Positions 12,228-39,070 of a stretch of 64,000 nucleotides of DNA are shown piece by piece. Positions within the stretch are counted from its first letter, which is position 1; each line of letters opens with the position of its first letter. The DNA lies in contig NZ_BMPF01000001.1 in NCBI RefSeq assembly GCF_014647455.2, positions 1,054,001 through 1,118,000 of the forward strand, written 5' to 3'. The notes under the pieces were generated by a model. That model saw nothing but the letters and a program-made list of their open reading frames with translations. It did no database searches and was not told the DNA's origin. The DNA comes from Halarchaeum grantii (lineage in GTDB: Archaea > Halobacteriota > Halobacteria > Halobacteriales > Halobacteriaceae). The translations under genes and the position numbers were made by a program.

Positions 12228-12236
12228 CCGTTTAAA

Positions 12237-12276
12237 CCGTTCAGAACGCTCTGAACGGCCGGAACGCGGCTGAACG
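12237..12276. promoter_or_regulatory. Perfect inverted repeat and phased GAACG boxes
   Basis: CCGTTCAGA and TCTGAACGG form a perfect 9-base inverted repeat (12237-12245 and 12250-12258, spacer ACGC). GAAC boxes start at 12244, 12253, 12262 and 12273, a 9-11 base period. Position, 60-80 bases before the secreted-protein ATG, suits an operator. Related boxes precede the lipoprotein gene at 2122. Confidence 0.5.
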
Positions 12277-12319
12277 AGCGCCCGGGTTTTTCTCCATAGC
12301 GGCAGTAGGGTGGGGTACG

Positions 12320-13399
12320 ATGAGACGCACTCGAACGGTCATGGTGACGGCGATGCTCGTCCTCGCGCTCGCCGCTCCCTTCGCGGGGGGCGCGCTCGCA
12401 GCGTCCGGCGACGAGCTCGCCGTGGACGTGGCACAGGCCGACGACGGGAACGCGACGGTGACGGTCACCGAGAACGCGAGCGCGGTGGCGAACGCCTCGG
12501 TGAGCGTCACGGCGGTGAACAACTCAACGTACGCCGGTGCGGGCGACTACGCGACGGACGCCAACGGCACCGTCGCCCTCCCCGCTCCCGAGCAGAACGT
12601 CACGGTCGACGTGACGGCGACGAGCGCGAACAGTACTGCGTCGACGACGGCGACGCTCGTCGCGCCGGCGGTGGAGACGAACGCGACGCTCGACGTCGGC
12701 GTGACGCAGGCGAGTGACGGGAGCGCGACGGTCTCCGTGACGGAGAACGCCAGCGCGGTGGCGAACGCCTCCGTGGCGGTCGCCACGCAGGACAACGTGA
12801 CGTACGCGGGCACGGGCGACTACGCGACGGACGCCGACGGCACCGTCGCCCTCCCCGCACCCGAGCAGAACGTCACGGTCGACGTGACGGCGACGTTCGA
12901 GAACCGGAGCGCGTCGACGACGGCGACGCTGACCGTGGCGACGAACGCCACGAACGCCACGAACGAGTCGGCGGTCTTCGGTCAGCGCGTCTCGACGTTC
13001 GTCCACTCGCTCCTCGCGTCGGGCAACATGAGCGGGCAGGCGGTCTCCGAGTGGGTGACCGCGAACAACCCCGGGAACGCCCACGCGAACGGCCACGCTG
13101 ACGACGGAAACGAGACGGCCGACGGGAACGCGAGCGGTCCCGGGAACGCCGGCGCGGCGGACGGTGAGCGCGGGCCGCCCGAGCACGCCGGTGCGAACGG
13201 CCACGCGAACGACACCGACGAGAACGAAACCGCCGACGGAAGCGAGCGCGGCCCGCCCGAGCACGCCGGTTCGAACGGTCACGCTGACGACGGCGACGAC
13301 GCCGACGAAAGCGACGGCGACGCGGACGCCGAGAGCGGTGGCGAGCGCGGACCGCCCGAGCACGCCGGGAACGGGAACGGCGGCGGCCCCGATAACTAA
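12320..13399 (+). CDS. Secreted repeat protein rich in N-glycosylation sites
   Basis: A 359-residue exported protein with a classical signal peptide (MRRTRTVMVTAMLVLALAAPFAGGALA, cleavage near residue 27). Two Ig-like beta repeats of about 90 residues follow, both containing TVTENASAVANASV-type strands, GDYATDA.GTVALPAPEQNVTVDVTAT and many N-x-S/T sequons. The C-terminal third is a low-complexity acidic His/Gly/Asn region with three copies of ERGPPEHAG. No membrane anchor, lipobox or PGF-CTERM is seen, so it is probably released or held non-covalently at the surface. Function unknown. The phased boxes upstream suggest shared control with the lipoprotein at 2122. Confidence 0.75.
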   Translation: MRRTRTVMVTAMLVLALAAPFAGGALAASGDELAVDVAQADDGNATVTVTENASAVANASVSVTAVNNSTYAGAGDYATDANGTVALPAPEQNVTVDVTATSANSTASTTATLVAPAVETNATLDVGVTQASDGSATVSVTENASAVANASVAVATQDNVTYAGTGDYATDADGTVALPAPEQNVTVDVTATFENRSASTTATLTVATNATNATNESAVFGQRVSTFVHSLLASGNMSGQAVSEWVTANNPGNAHANGHADDGNETADGNASGPGNAGAADGERGPPEHAGANGHANDTDENETADGSERGPPEHAGSNGHADDGDDADESDGDADAESGGERGPPEHAGNGNGGGPDN

Positions 13400-30086: not shown

Positions 30087-31211
30087 ATGGCCGACGACCC
30101 CGACGGAGGGATGCTGTCGTGGGACGAGTCGGTGTTCCGCGACGAGCACGTCTTCGAGATCGACTACGTACCGGAGGCGTTCCGCCACCGCGAGTCCCAA
30201 CTCCAGACCCTCCAGTACGCCCTCCAGCCCGCCGTCCGGGGGAATCGGCCGCTGAACGTGATGGTGCGCGGGCCGCCCGGCACCGGGAAGACGACGGCCG
30301 TCCAGAAGCTCTTCGCCGAACTCGGCGGCCAGCCCGGCGTCCGCGTGGTGCGCGTGAACTGCCAGGTGGACTCGACGCGCTACGGGGTCTTCTCGCGGAT
30401 CTTCGAGTCCATCTTCGAGTACGAGCCGCCGAGTTCGGGCATCTCCTTCAAGAAGCTCTTCGGGCAGGTCACGGAGCGCCTCATCGACGACGAGGAGGTG
30501 CTCGTGGTCGCGCTCGACGACGTGAACTACCTCTTCTACGAGAACGAGGCCTCCAATACGCTCTACTCGCTGCTGCGCGCACACGAGACGCATCCCGGTG
30601 CGAAGGTCGGCGTCGTCGCCATCTCCTCCGACCCGGACCTCGACGTCATCGAGGACCTCGACGGCCGCGTCCAGTCCGTCTTCCGGCCGGAGGAGGCCTA
30701 CTTCCCCGTCTACGACCGCGAGGAGGTCGCGGACATCCTCGGGGACAGGGTTCGCGTCGGCTTCCGCGACGGCGTGCTCGACATGGCCGTCCTCGACCGC
30801 GTCACCGAACTCACCACGAACACGGGCGACCTCCGCGTCGGCATCGACCTCCTGCGGCGCGCGGGCCTCCACGCCGAATCGCGGGCGTCCAAGACCGTCG
30901 AGTTGGAGGACGTCGAAGCGGTGAGCGAGGAGGCGCGCAACCTGCATCTCTCGCGGAACCTCGACGCGCTCAGCGACGTCGAGCGCACGCTCGTGGACGT
31001 CGTCGCCGACCACGACGGCGAGCAGGCGGGCGACGTCTACGACGCGTTCGCCGAGCGCACCGACCTCGGCTACACCCGCTACACGGAGGTCGTGAACAAA
31101 CTCGACCAGCTCGACCTCATCGACGCGCGCTACGAGAGCCTCGAGGGGCGCGGGCGCTCGCGGACGCTGACGCTCGTGCACGACCGCGAGGCCGTGAAGC
31201 GGCGCCTCTAG
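30087..31211 (+). CDS. Orc1/Cdc6 family replication initiator (first of two)
   Basis: A 374-residue AAA+ initiator with a C-terminal winged helix. Walker A GPPGTGKT is at residues 62-69; the Walker B reads VALDDVNYLF, Asp-Asp rather than Asp-Glu, which is common in one Orc subgroup. Sensor and lid regions (VGVVAISSDPDLDVI, GDLRVGIDLLRRAG) and the winged helix (TRYTEVVNKLDQLDLI) follow. No iterated repeats are visible beside this gene, unlike the second orc at 37567, so it may bind a distant origin or regulate. Starts 44 bases after the MutS-like gene on the same strand. Confidence 0.9.
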   Translation: MADDPDGGMLSWDESVFRDEHVFEIDYVPEAFRHRESQLQTLQYALQPAVRGNRPLNVMVRGPPGTGKTTAVQKLFAELGGQPGVRVVRVNCQVDSTRYGVFSRIFESIFEYEPPSSGISFKKLFGQVTERLIDDEEVLVVALDDVNYLFYENEASNTLYSLLRAHETHPGAKVGVVAISSDPDLDVIEDLDGRVQSVFRPEEAYFPVYDREEVADILGDRVRVGFRDGVLDMAVLDRVTELTTNTGDLRVGIDLLRRAGLHAESRASKTVELEDVEAVSEEARNLHLSRNLDALSDVERTLVDVVADHDGEQAGDVYDAFAERTDLGYTRYTEVVNKLDQLDLIDARYESLEGRGRSRTLTLVHDREAVKRRL

Positions 31212-36175: not shown

Positions 36176-36335
36176 ACCCGACGTTAGCGACGCGACACTA
36201 AAAGCCGCCCCCCATCGGCCGCGACGGCCGCGGCCGCCGGACGGCGGGGGCGGCGCACGCCCGTCGAGTTGGGTGGCCGGTGCACGCCCTGCCGGTGGCC
36301 GCGTCTTTTTGCCCGCGACGGCCGAGGGACGGGAC

Positions 36336-37229
36336 GTGAGTGAAACCGCCGTCGTCACCGGAGGACTCGGTCGCGCGGGCCGCTGGGTCGTCGACGCGTT
36401 CGCCGAGCGGGGCTACGAGACGGTCTGCGTCGACCTCGACCACCCCGGGTGGGAGATCTCCCCCCGAGAGAACGTGGACTTCCGCGCCGCCGACCTCGCG
36501 GACGCCGCCGAGGCGTTCGACCTGTTCGCTGACCTCGGCCCGGACGCCGTCGCGCACCTCGCGGCGCTCCCCGCGCCGGAACGCCACGCCGGGAACCGGG
36601 TGTTCGCGACGAACACGGAGTCGACGTATAACGTCCTCACTGCGGCCGGCCGCGCCGGCGCGCGGGTCGCGTGGGCGTCCAGCGAGTCCGCCTACGGCTT
36701 CCCGTTCGCCCGCGAGAAGACGCTCCCGGACGAACTCCCCATCACCGAGGACCACGAACTCCGCCCCGAGGACCCCTACGGCCTCTCGAAGGTCGTCGGC
36801 GAGGAGACGGCGGCGCGGACGGCGCGACGCTATGACGTCCCCGTGGTGTCGGTGCGGCCGTCGTGGGTCCAGCATCCCGGCGACTACAACTGCACGGGCA
36901 ACCGGGACGACATCGCCGCCGGCGCGGGGAACTTCTGGTCGTACGTCGATGCGCGCGACCTCGCGAGCCTCTTCGTCGCCGCCGTCGAGCCCGACGCGGT
37001 CACGGGTCACGAGGCCGTCAACGGCGTCGCCGCCGAGAACTACATGGACCGCCCGACCGCCGACGTCGTCGAGGAGTTCTTCGGCGAACTGCCCGCCGAC
37101 TGCACGCTAGAGGGCGAGCAGTCGGCGCTCTCGCCCGCGAAGGCCCGGCGCCTCCTCGACTGGGAGCCCGAGCACACGTGGCGCGACGCCGCCGACGCGG
37201 ACGTCGAAACGCCGTCGCTCTACGAGTAG
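36336..37229 (+). CDS. NAD-dependent epimerase/dehydratase
   Basis: A 297-residue extended short-chain dehydrogenase. The NAD loop is TGGLGRAGRWV (about residues 8-18); the catalytic Ser and Y-x3-K are in WASSESAYGF and DPYGLSKVVGEE. A SYVDARDLASLFVAA segment and a late LLDWEPEHTWRD are typical of sugar-nucleotide epimerases, but the substrate is not assignable. GTG 36336 is favoured by a TCTTTTTG box 26-30 bases upstream. Its 3' side opens onto the origin-like repeat region. Confidence 0.85.
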   Translation: MSETAVVTGGLGRAGRWVVDAFAERGYETVCVDLDHPGWEISPRENVDFRAADLADAAEAFDLFADLGPDAVAHLAALPAPERHAGNRVFATNTESTYNVLTAAGRAGARVAWASSESAYGFPFAREKTLPDELPITEDHELRPEDPYGLSKVVGEETAARTARRYDVPVVSVRPSWVQHPGDYNCTGNRDDIAAGAGNFWSYVDARDLASLFVAAVEPDAVTGHEAVNGVAAENYMDRPTADVVEEFFGELPADCTLEGEQSALSPAKARRLLDWEPEHTWRDAADADVETPSLYE

Positions 37230-37269: not shown

Positions 37270-37530
37270 CACACACCACCAATGCCAGTAACGCCGGGGG
37301 CGCGCCGGTCGCCCCCACAGGCGTGAGTGAGGCGGCGGGGAGACACACCACCCGTGCCAGTAACGCCGGGGATAGGGTGGGTCGGTGCGCGGTCGGTGAC
37401 CCGTCGTGCCAGTATTGCCACAACACACACCACTCGTGCCAGTAACGCGGGTAGGGCGTGGCTATTTCGGACAGCACGCCGCCCGCGACGGCGACCCACA
37501 CACCACCCGTGCCAGTAACGCACGTAGGGG
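37270..37530 (+). other. Iteron array downstream of orc (probable origin, left arm)
   Basis: Four repeats of the form CACACCACCCGTGCCAGTAA(CG) at about 37270-37299, 37342-37371, 37424-37451 and 37497-37521, all in the same orientation, plus a half site CGTGCCAGTATTGCCA near 37406. Variation is limited to a few central bases. Together with one direct and one inverted copy beyond the other end of the orc gene they form a typical initiator-binding layout. The remaining bases of the 337-base gene-free stretch show no gene. Confidence 0.7.
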
Positions 37531-37566
37531 TCCGGGGGCGCGTACGGAGACCCGACGGACGGCTGT

Positions 37567-38823
37567 TCAGAGAACGTGGTTCCGGTGCGCCGTCTCGCGA
37601 ACGGCGGTGAGGTCGTCGAACTCCACCTCGAGTGCGTCGATGGCGGAGTCGAGTTCGACGTCGAGTTCGTACTGATTGTAGTTGCCGCGACCGCTCGTGT
37701 CGTCGATCTTCGTCAGGACGCCCTGGAGGGTGAGGTCGGTGAGGTGGTCGTGCATCGCGCGGCGTTTGAGCGGGTCGGAGCCCTCGCGCTTGCTCACCTG
37801 CCGGTAGCGCTGGTGGATGACCTTCGTCCGTTCGGGCGTCTCGCCCTCGGCTTCGAGGTGTGCGACCGTGAGGAGGACGAGTTTGCCGTGGCGGGTGAGT
37901 TCCTCCATCCCCTCGACGACCTGCTGGCGCTGGATCTCCTCCTCGGCGCGTCGAACGTGTTCCTCGGTGATTCGGGGGTCGCCGTCCGACGGTCCGTTCT
38001 CGGCGAAGTCACCGGCGATACGGAGGAGCCTGAGCGCCTGGCGCGCGCTCCCGCTGTCCTGGGCGGCCATCGCGGCGCAGAGCGGGACGACGCCCTCGGC
38101 GAGGACACCCTCGGCGAGCGCGCGGTCGGCGCGCTTCTCGAGGATGCGGACGAGTTGCTCGGCGTCGTAGGGCTGGAAGTGGACCTCCTTCTCGCAGAGG
38201 GAGTCCTTGACCTTCGGGGAGAGGTTCTCCCTGAACTTGAAGTCGTTACTGATCCCGATGAGGCCGAGGTTGACGTCGATGTCGTAGGTCTTGCGGGCGC
38301 GCGGGAGTTCGTAGAGGATGTCGTCGTCGCTCCCGATGGTGTCGATCTCGTCGAGGACGACGATGACGTCGCCGCCCGCGCTCTCGAAGTCCTTCAGGAG
38401 CTCGCGGAAGACGCGTTTCTGTGGGTGGCCGGTCTCGGGGAGGGGGTCCTTCTCGAGCGAGACGGTGGTGAGCGCGTGGGAGTGGGCGTCGCCGGTCCGC
38501 ATCTCGTTGACGAGGTTGACGGCGACCTGATAGCTCGACGTGATGCCGGTGCAGTTGAGTTCGACGACTTCGAGGTGTCGCTCGACGTCGGCGGCGGCGT
38601 CGAGGAGTTCGGTGATGAGGGCGTGGGTCGCGGCGGTCTTCCCGACGCCGGTGAGCCCGTAGAGGAAGAGGTTGTCCGGCTGGTTTCCTCGGAGGAGCGG
38701 CCGGAGCGCGCTCGCGCACGTGTCCATCTCGGCGTCGCGCTCCGCGAGGTTGTCCGGCTGCCAGTCTTCGCGGAGGACATCCTTGTTCGCGAAGACGAGG
38801 TTGTCGAGGTCGAACCGCGCCAT
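37567..38823 (-). CDS. Orc1/Cdc6 replication initiator (origin-linked)
   Basis: A 418-residue AAA+ origin-binding protein with a C-terminal winged helix. Walker A GLTGVGKT is at residues 56-63, Walker B VVLDEIDTIG is canonical, sensor 1 LGLIGISNDFKF and the initiator-specific LSPKVKDSL follow; the winged helix covers the last 120 residues (KLVLLTVAHLEAE, RYRQVSKREGSDPL). ATG 38823 begins MARFDLDNLVFANKDVL and is 23-30 bases from a TATA box. Repeats flank it on both sides, so it most likely binds its own neighbourhood as origin. Confidence 0.93.
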   Translation of the reverse strand: MARFDLDNLVFANKDVLREDWQPDNLAERDAEMDTCASALRPLLRGNQPDNLFLYGLTGVGKTAATHALITELLDAAADVERHLEVVELNCTGITSSYQVAVNLVNEMRTGDAHSHALTTVSLEKDPLPETGHPQKRVFRELLKDFESAGGDVIVVLDEIDTIGSDDDILYELPRARKTYDIDVNLGLIGISNDFKFRENLSPKVKDSLCEKEVHFQPYDAEQLVRILEKRADRALAEGVLAEGVVPLCAAMAAQDSGSARQALRLLRIAGDFAENGPSDGDPRITEEHVRRAEEEIQRQQVVEGMEELTRHGKLVLLTVAHLEAEGETPERTKVIHQRYRQVSKREGSDPLKRRAMHDHLTDLTLQGVLTKIDDTSGRGNYNQYELDVELDSAIDALEVEFDDLTAVRETAHRNHVL

Positions 38824-39070
38824 ACCGGGAGGACCACGCCCACACATATAAAACCACCCTTGCCAATATTGCCAGTATTGCCAATGGTGCCAGAACACAC
38901 ACCACCCGTGCCAGTAACGCGGCGCCATCCCAGCGCGGTCGGAGGCGACGATGGCCACCGAGGGATTCACGGCGGCGCGATACGGCGCTGACACGGAAAG
39001 GAGGCCCGGCGAACGCGCGGACAGCCTCTTGTCGCATCGGCGTTACTGGCATCGGTGGTGTGTGTGGGAG
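38824..39070. other. AT-rich and iteron region upstream of orc (probable origin, right arm)
   Basis: Contains the orc promoter, four T/G-TGCCA half sites at exact 9-base steps (38860, 38869, 38878, 38887), a full direct iteron (38896-38920) and a full inverted iteron (39040-39066). The AT-rich stretch 38845-38886 is the best candidate unwinding element. From 39071 to 39248 I see only the nmd3 promoter (TTTAA at 39216-39220). Confidence 0.65.
38846..38853 (-). promoter_or_regulatory. TATA box of the origin-linked orc gene
   Basis: TTTTATAT on the minus strand, 23-30 bases before the ATG at 38823; lies next to the phased TGCCA half sites, so initiator binding could repress its own gene. Confidence 0.7.

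Follow-up and report, generated by a model that had tools for sequence, protein, structure and literature searches.

For several haloarchaeal orc/cdc6-adjacent origins, ORBs have been recorded on either side of the gene (Wu et al. 2012, PMC3528665). Genetic work on Haloarcula hispanica showed that every origin requires its cognate cdc6 and that oriC2 is under negative control by oriC2D, an ORB cluster downstream, which probably acts through titration (PMC3936714). Haloarchaeal origins can be gained, lost or disrupted (PMC4441112), and one whose cognate cdc6 is defective may be supplied from another place (PMC3119063). We analyzed an orc gene surrounded by repeats in a 64,000-nt stretch of the Halarchaeum grantii genome (the window; Table 1). 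The best reading of the locus is an acquired Orc-ORB module with a downstream titration-type cluster, and the module is a probable candidate origin. The module is genuine and of a known kind, and it is probably functional.

The orc product has the AAA+ ATPase, Cdc6 lid and C-terminal winged helix of the Orc1/Cdc6 family (domain matches AAA, PF22703 and PF09079) with intact Walker A and B motifs (GLTGVGKTA and VIVVLDEID), and phmmer matched it to S. solfataricus Cdc6-1 (2qby_A) at E = 3e-62. A leaderless transcript is expected from the position of the TATA box. The first-pass annotation of the window had described six repeat copies around this gene: four on its 3' side that share an orientation and two on its 5' side, one direct and the other inverted. 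The coordinates bear out both the copies and their layout, the reading frame is intact, and the annotation's call of a likely replication origin was reasonable. It missed a degenerate seventh site and two ladders of core boxes, one of four units and one of two. A second Orc-like AAA+ gene lies in the window at 30120-31091; it is 29% identical, gave no Cdc6_C winged-helix match, has no flanking ORBs, and forms a separate long-branched clade with C1:671098.

Table 1. Coordinates of the orc gene, its repeats and adjoining features (positions in the window).
Feature	Position	Strand	Remarks
NAD-dependent epimerase gene	36285-37229	+	Same extra block as orc, between HtpX and NMD3
ORB1	37271-37293	-	CGTTACTGGCATTGGTGGTGTGT; matrix scan
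ORB2	37343-37365	-	Matrix scan
Two core-only boxes in 9-bp phase	37408-37425	-	TGCCAGTAT TGCCACAAC on + strand; abut ORB3; read directly
ORB3	37425-37447	-	Matrix scan
ORB4	37498-37520	-	Matrix scan; ORB1-4 form the downstream (3') cluster
orc1/cdc6 initiator gene	37567-38823	-	418 aa, intact; AAA+, Cdc6 lid, Cdc6_C winged helix
Least stable, most AT-rich stretch of module	38842-38902		About 50% GC
TATA box of orc	38847-38852	-	About 25 nt before ATG; assigned from position
Degenerate seventh ORB	38849-38871	-	CAATATTGGCAAGGGTGGTTTTA; overlaps TATA box; 18-20 bits
Four tandem 9-bp ORB-core boxes	38860-38895	-	TTCTGGCAC CATTGGCAA TACTGGCAA TATTGGCAA; lead into GGGTGG and TATA box
ORB5	38897-38919	-	Matrix scan
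ORB6	39041-39063	+	Inverted relative to ORB5; matrix scan

Read from core to G-string, ORB1 to ORB5 run on the minus strand and ORB6 on the plus strand, and ORB5 and ORB6 form an inverted pair. The annotation held that the repeat has no G-string and is unlike the haloarchaeal ORB, which is incorrect: on the strand opposite to the one it read, the repeat is CGTTACTGGCAnnGGTGGTGTGT, a core plus a G/T string (core first, CGTTACTGGCA-nn-GGTGGTGTGT), and the CACACACCACC half is the G-string GGTGGTGTGTG seen from its complementary strand. The genome-wide search that it had proposed as a check located TGCCAGTAACG only at this orc, with six exact matches in the whole 3.02-Mb genome, all at the module, and 0 matches for a reversed control pattern. 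A matrix made from the six ORBs was scanned over the 1.13-Mb contig. At a cut-off of at least 14 bits, the matches were the six ORBs, the degenerate seventh, and, at 49-51 kb of the contig, five ORBs that belong to another orc gene. Outside the module the matrix recovers nothing but these ORBs, which speaks well for the repeat being an ORB of the ordinary haloarchaeal format with a different core. A score like that of the degenerate copy (18 bits) is given once or twice by the shuffled contig; its position makes the site notable. A literature search with the letters of the repeat returned chance matches only.

The genome encodes about 17 Orc-like genes of >300 aa. About 14 of these have a flanking repeat family of their own, in which a G/T string comes after a distinct core (ACACTTGCAGC-GGTGGTGTGTG, TTACTGCGGAC-nGGTGGTGTT and AACAGCGGAAGC-AGTGGGGTGGG, among others), so that the pair in the window is one among many parallel specificities. 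The universal Orc1 is found at C2:706-708 kb with a canonical-looking ORB, TTCCAGACGAAACAAAGGGG (canonical oriC1). Broken orc remnants with several stops were observed on a small contig (G000:C9:55993-56601).

The closest Orcs are 63-64% identical to the window Orc, near-identical among themselves, and mostly located on 100-300-kb plasmids of many haloarchaeal genera; in a tree the window Orc groups with this plasmid family (support 100/100). The plasmid relatives carry a sister box, TTACTGGCAATAGTGGAGTGTG (CGTTACTGGCAATAGTGGAGTG-type boxes), as an upstream inverted pair in the orientations of ORB6 and ORB5, and also downstream of the gene. Among 26 genomes of the family, clusters of this ORB motif were detected only here, at the same site in the congener G001, and, as the sister motif, beside the 64% identical Orcs of G017 and G023, the other motif matches being isolated single ones. 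Judged from this co-occurrence of Orc clade and motif, ORB sequence follows the Orc family. A specific Orc-ORB pair is strongly supported by the sequence comparison: in its genome the motif is confined to this orc, and boxes of its family recur in the same two-sided layout beside the 63% identical relatives. The repeats are almost certainly the binding site of the adjacent Orc. To that extent the distinct initiator-origin pair of the annotation stands; its format is haloarchaeal after all, and its origin activity is what we infer. The near-invariant plasmid Orc WP_004594472 was present in two records, with a short Cdc6/Cdc18 gene adjoining in both, and one plasmid carrying this Orc has merA nearby. 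Its occurrence on plasmids of many haloarchaeal genera marks a recently spread replicon.

Among four congeners, orc is present only in the window's genome (G000), which NMD3 DNA identities place outside the other three. In G002, G003 and other genera of the family, HtpX directly adjoins NMD3, and neither an orc nor repeats of this kind are present; the window has the epimerase, orc and the boxes in the gap between the two genes. Searches of the three congeners at E<=1e-60 matched neither the epimerase nor orc. The same gap in G001 (G001:C107:2625-3601; L050 525-1501) is about 980 nt long and contains nine boxes of the window's specificity, six one way and three the other, and no orc. No orc fragment was found in this gap or its contig, and the best Orc anywhere in G001, whose assembly is 89% complete, is 48% identical. 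The G001 array keeps the ladder-plus-ORB arrangement that lies upstream of orc in the window. It also has a canonical-looking palindromic core, GTTTCCAGTGGAAC, at about 697-710 (L050). A possible remnant of the orc leader in the array (10-nt match, shuffle p = 0.002) was dropped because the G002 and G003 controls score nearly as well. The four congeners show one origin locus in three states: complete, ORBs without orc, and empty. The simplest reading is that the origin module is ancestral, with orc lost in G001 and everything lost in G002 and G003; alternatively, there may have been independent gains.

The block between HtpX and NMD3 could also be the residue of an integrated plasmid or element of which only the replication module and the epimerase are left, with an origin useful mainly to the ancestral replicon. 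Its absence from G002 and G003, the epimerase without a close match in three congeners, and the plasmid location of the closest Orcs in many genera all point that way, whereas a non-exhaustive search of the flanks showed neither an integrase nor an attachment site alongside, nor a short Cdc6/Cdc18 partner gene like that of the plasmids, and the 37% protein divergence makes a recent transfer from the plasmid family unlikely. We hold an integrated element to be possible, with considerable reservation; it is compatible with, and does not exclude, the best explanation of an acquired Orc-ORB module.

The four-copy ladder running into the TATA box is the least expected feature of the module, and the pattern extends beyond this locus. 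On the minus strand, ORB5 is followed by TTCTGGCAC CATTGGCAA TACTGGCAA TATTGGCAA in exact 9-bp phase, and then by GGGTGG and TTTTATATG. Other orc genes have the same plan with cores of their own (GCTCCGGAC ACTCCGGAC ACTCCGGAC GCGGTGG CTTTATT; GAACACTTA GAACAGTTA GAACACTTG CAGGGGAGGG), and ladders were seen among the orc upstream regions L008-L016, L075-L092 and L174-L187. We compared self-similarity at lags 5 to 14 and scored as a ladder at least 13/18 at lag 9. Of the 34 orc upstream regions from the genus (these include orthologues and are not independent), 15 reached this level, and none did so at any other lag from 5 to 14. Of 401 other genes of the contig, 22 reached it at lag 9, several through coding sequence. 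Three of 14 plasmid orc genes of other genera did so at lag 9 and none at other lags; by eye, most of the plasmid orc genes have two ladder units and a GTGG-TTTTAT junction. Universal Orc1 genes, with start codons placed approximately, gave 0/26.

For 8 of 11 promoter segments the best-matching ORB core was that of the same locus, a result equalled by 0 of 20,000 permutations; with the cores typed by hand and some full boxes falling inside the segments, this result is supportive rather than clean. Fusion of the G-string to the TATA box was found in 23/51 orc promoters vs. 9/779 genes, or vs. 9/53 when only genes with TTTAW are counted (p = 0.003). As a marker, this fusion by itself performs less well than the ladder. 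Elsewhere in the window (12230-12319), a 9-bp ladder (TTCAGAACG CTCTGAACG GCCGGAACG) precedes a non-orc gene (12320-13396, weak DUF6795 match) and is perhaps a similar regulatory array.

Variation of the promoter core with the ORB core of the locus also bears on whether the repeats could instead be bound by an unrelated transcription factor or be merely structural, their place around orc being incidental. The repeats do adjoin promoters, and archaeal Orc paralogues can be pure regulators, as is Orc1-2 of Sulfolobus (PMC9738581), yet the repeat is exclusive to this orc and its relatives and its core plus G-string format is common to the repeats of other orc genes. We regard such a coincidence as very improbable. 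The cognate ladders suggest autoregulation, each initiator controlling its own gene, and the simplest function for them would be repression of each orc by its own product. The ladder, whose DNA has the lowest stability in the module, may also serve as the unwinding site, which is compatible with repression. We give about even chances to the broader proposal that haloarchaeal orc genes of the multi-copy, mobile clade share an undescribed promoter architecture, in which two to five tandem 9-bp copies of the locus's own ORB core lead into a short G-string (often GGTGG) immediately beside the TATA box; each Orc would polymerise at a 9-bp pitch and shut its own promoter off, with specificity varying by locus, the architecture being kept, and universal Orc1 lacking it. 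A search of the openly readable literature found no description of an orc promoter ladder or of orc autoregulation in haloarchaea. With the conserved 9-bp ladder at orc promoters, the coexistence of many initiators in one cell can be put to a direct test; a binding specificity of its own and self-repression may insulate each of them. The pairs of Orc protein and binding core provide material for a recognition code, to which the module adds a chromosomal Orc-ORB specificity.

The annotation had also placed an AT-rich stretch between the two 5' copies. The DNA between ORB5 and ORB6 is in fact 72% GC (window mean 70%), and the AT-rich stretch lies outside the inverted pair, between ORB5 and the orc start codon. 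The canonical ORB-DUE-ORB unit, with an AT-rich unwinding element between inverted ORBs, is absent, the AT-rich stretch adjoining ORB5 on the other side. In the plasmid relatives, the upstream inverted pair brackets DNA of 30-35% GC, and this difference counts against the origin reading. So do the dispensability of the module in the genus (absent from G002 and G003, orc missing from G001) and the presence of universal Orc1 elsewhere in the genome. In Haloquadratum, predicted origins are located at inflections of the cumulative skew curve, the minimum being the likely terminus (PMC3119063). The cumulative GC-skew maximum of our contig is 8 kb from the module and the contig end is 34 kb away; the contrast in skew slope is in the top 0.2% at ±34 kb and only in the top 5-23% at ±20-30 kb, depending on the span analysed. 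GC skew was rejected as origin proof because of the nearby contig end and this dependence of the local contrast.

A real but dormant or decaying module, with Orc binding the boxes and regulating itself and no firing under normal conditions, must also be weighed here. Dormant origins in Haloferax mediterranei fire when others are deleted (PMC4595724). The GC-rich DNA within the inverted pair, the loss of orc or of the whole module in congeners, and the about 14 other Orc-ORB pairs in the same genome would be consistent with dormancy, but six near-perfect ORBs, an intact Orc and the nearby GC-skew maximum argue for recent selection, and we consider a dormant module rather unlikely.

We conclude, with good confidence, that the locus is a cognate haloarchaeal-type Orc1/Cdc6-ORB replicator-initiator module, which its closest relatives lack in its entirety and which most resembles the plasmid-borne family, and that it would work as follows. 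Orc would bind the 23-bp boxes through the core TTACTGGCA and the G-string GGTGGTGTGT. Unwinding and MCM loading would likely take place on the upstream side (ORB6, ORB5, AT-rich ladder and promoter). The downstream boxes, four in a single orientation, would most likely titrate Orc and restrain initiation, as oriC2D does in H. hispanica; from this analogy we infer that ORB5/ORB6 with the AT-rich ladder form the initiation side and ORB1-4 the titration side. Orc on the core ladder and on the degenerate box over the TATA box would most likely repress its own gene.

Compared with the haloarchaeal orc/cdc6-adjacent origins of Wu et al. (2012, PMC3528665), the module is similar in its Orc of >300 aa with AAA+ and winged helix, in flanking ORBs with a G-string, in the inverted pair, and in the linkage of Orc family and ORB sequence; it differs in the ORB core TTACTGGCA and in the AT-rich stretch outside the inverted pair. 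Among the matches listed for the window Orc, none of at least 60% identity lay on a plasmid of the classic genomes. Like oriC2-cdc6E/oriC2D of H. hispanica (PMC3936714), the module has its origin side ahead of orc and a cluster rich in ORBs immediately after it, and resembles an imported second origin; unlike oriC2D, it has four downstream boxes instead of eleven, and it belongs to a different Orc family. The plasmid Orc family WP_004594472 (Halorubrum, Halobellus, Haloprofundus, Halorussus and others), 63% identical and of the same length, has in common with the window the inverted upstream pair, the downstream boxes, the TTACTGGCA core and the core-only boxes in 9-bp phase. It is unlike the window in being plasmid-borne, with AT-rich DNA within the inverted pair, the G-string GTGGAGTGTG and an accompanying short Cdc6/Cdc18 gene. 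In bacteria, dnaA has initiator boxes in its own promoter, and datA is a titrating cluster. The initiator and boxes of the module are unrelated to these, and the likeness, an initiator gene with putative sites for its product in the promoter and a putative titrating cluster nearby, would be one of logic only; the same analogy is drawn in PMC3936714.
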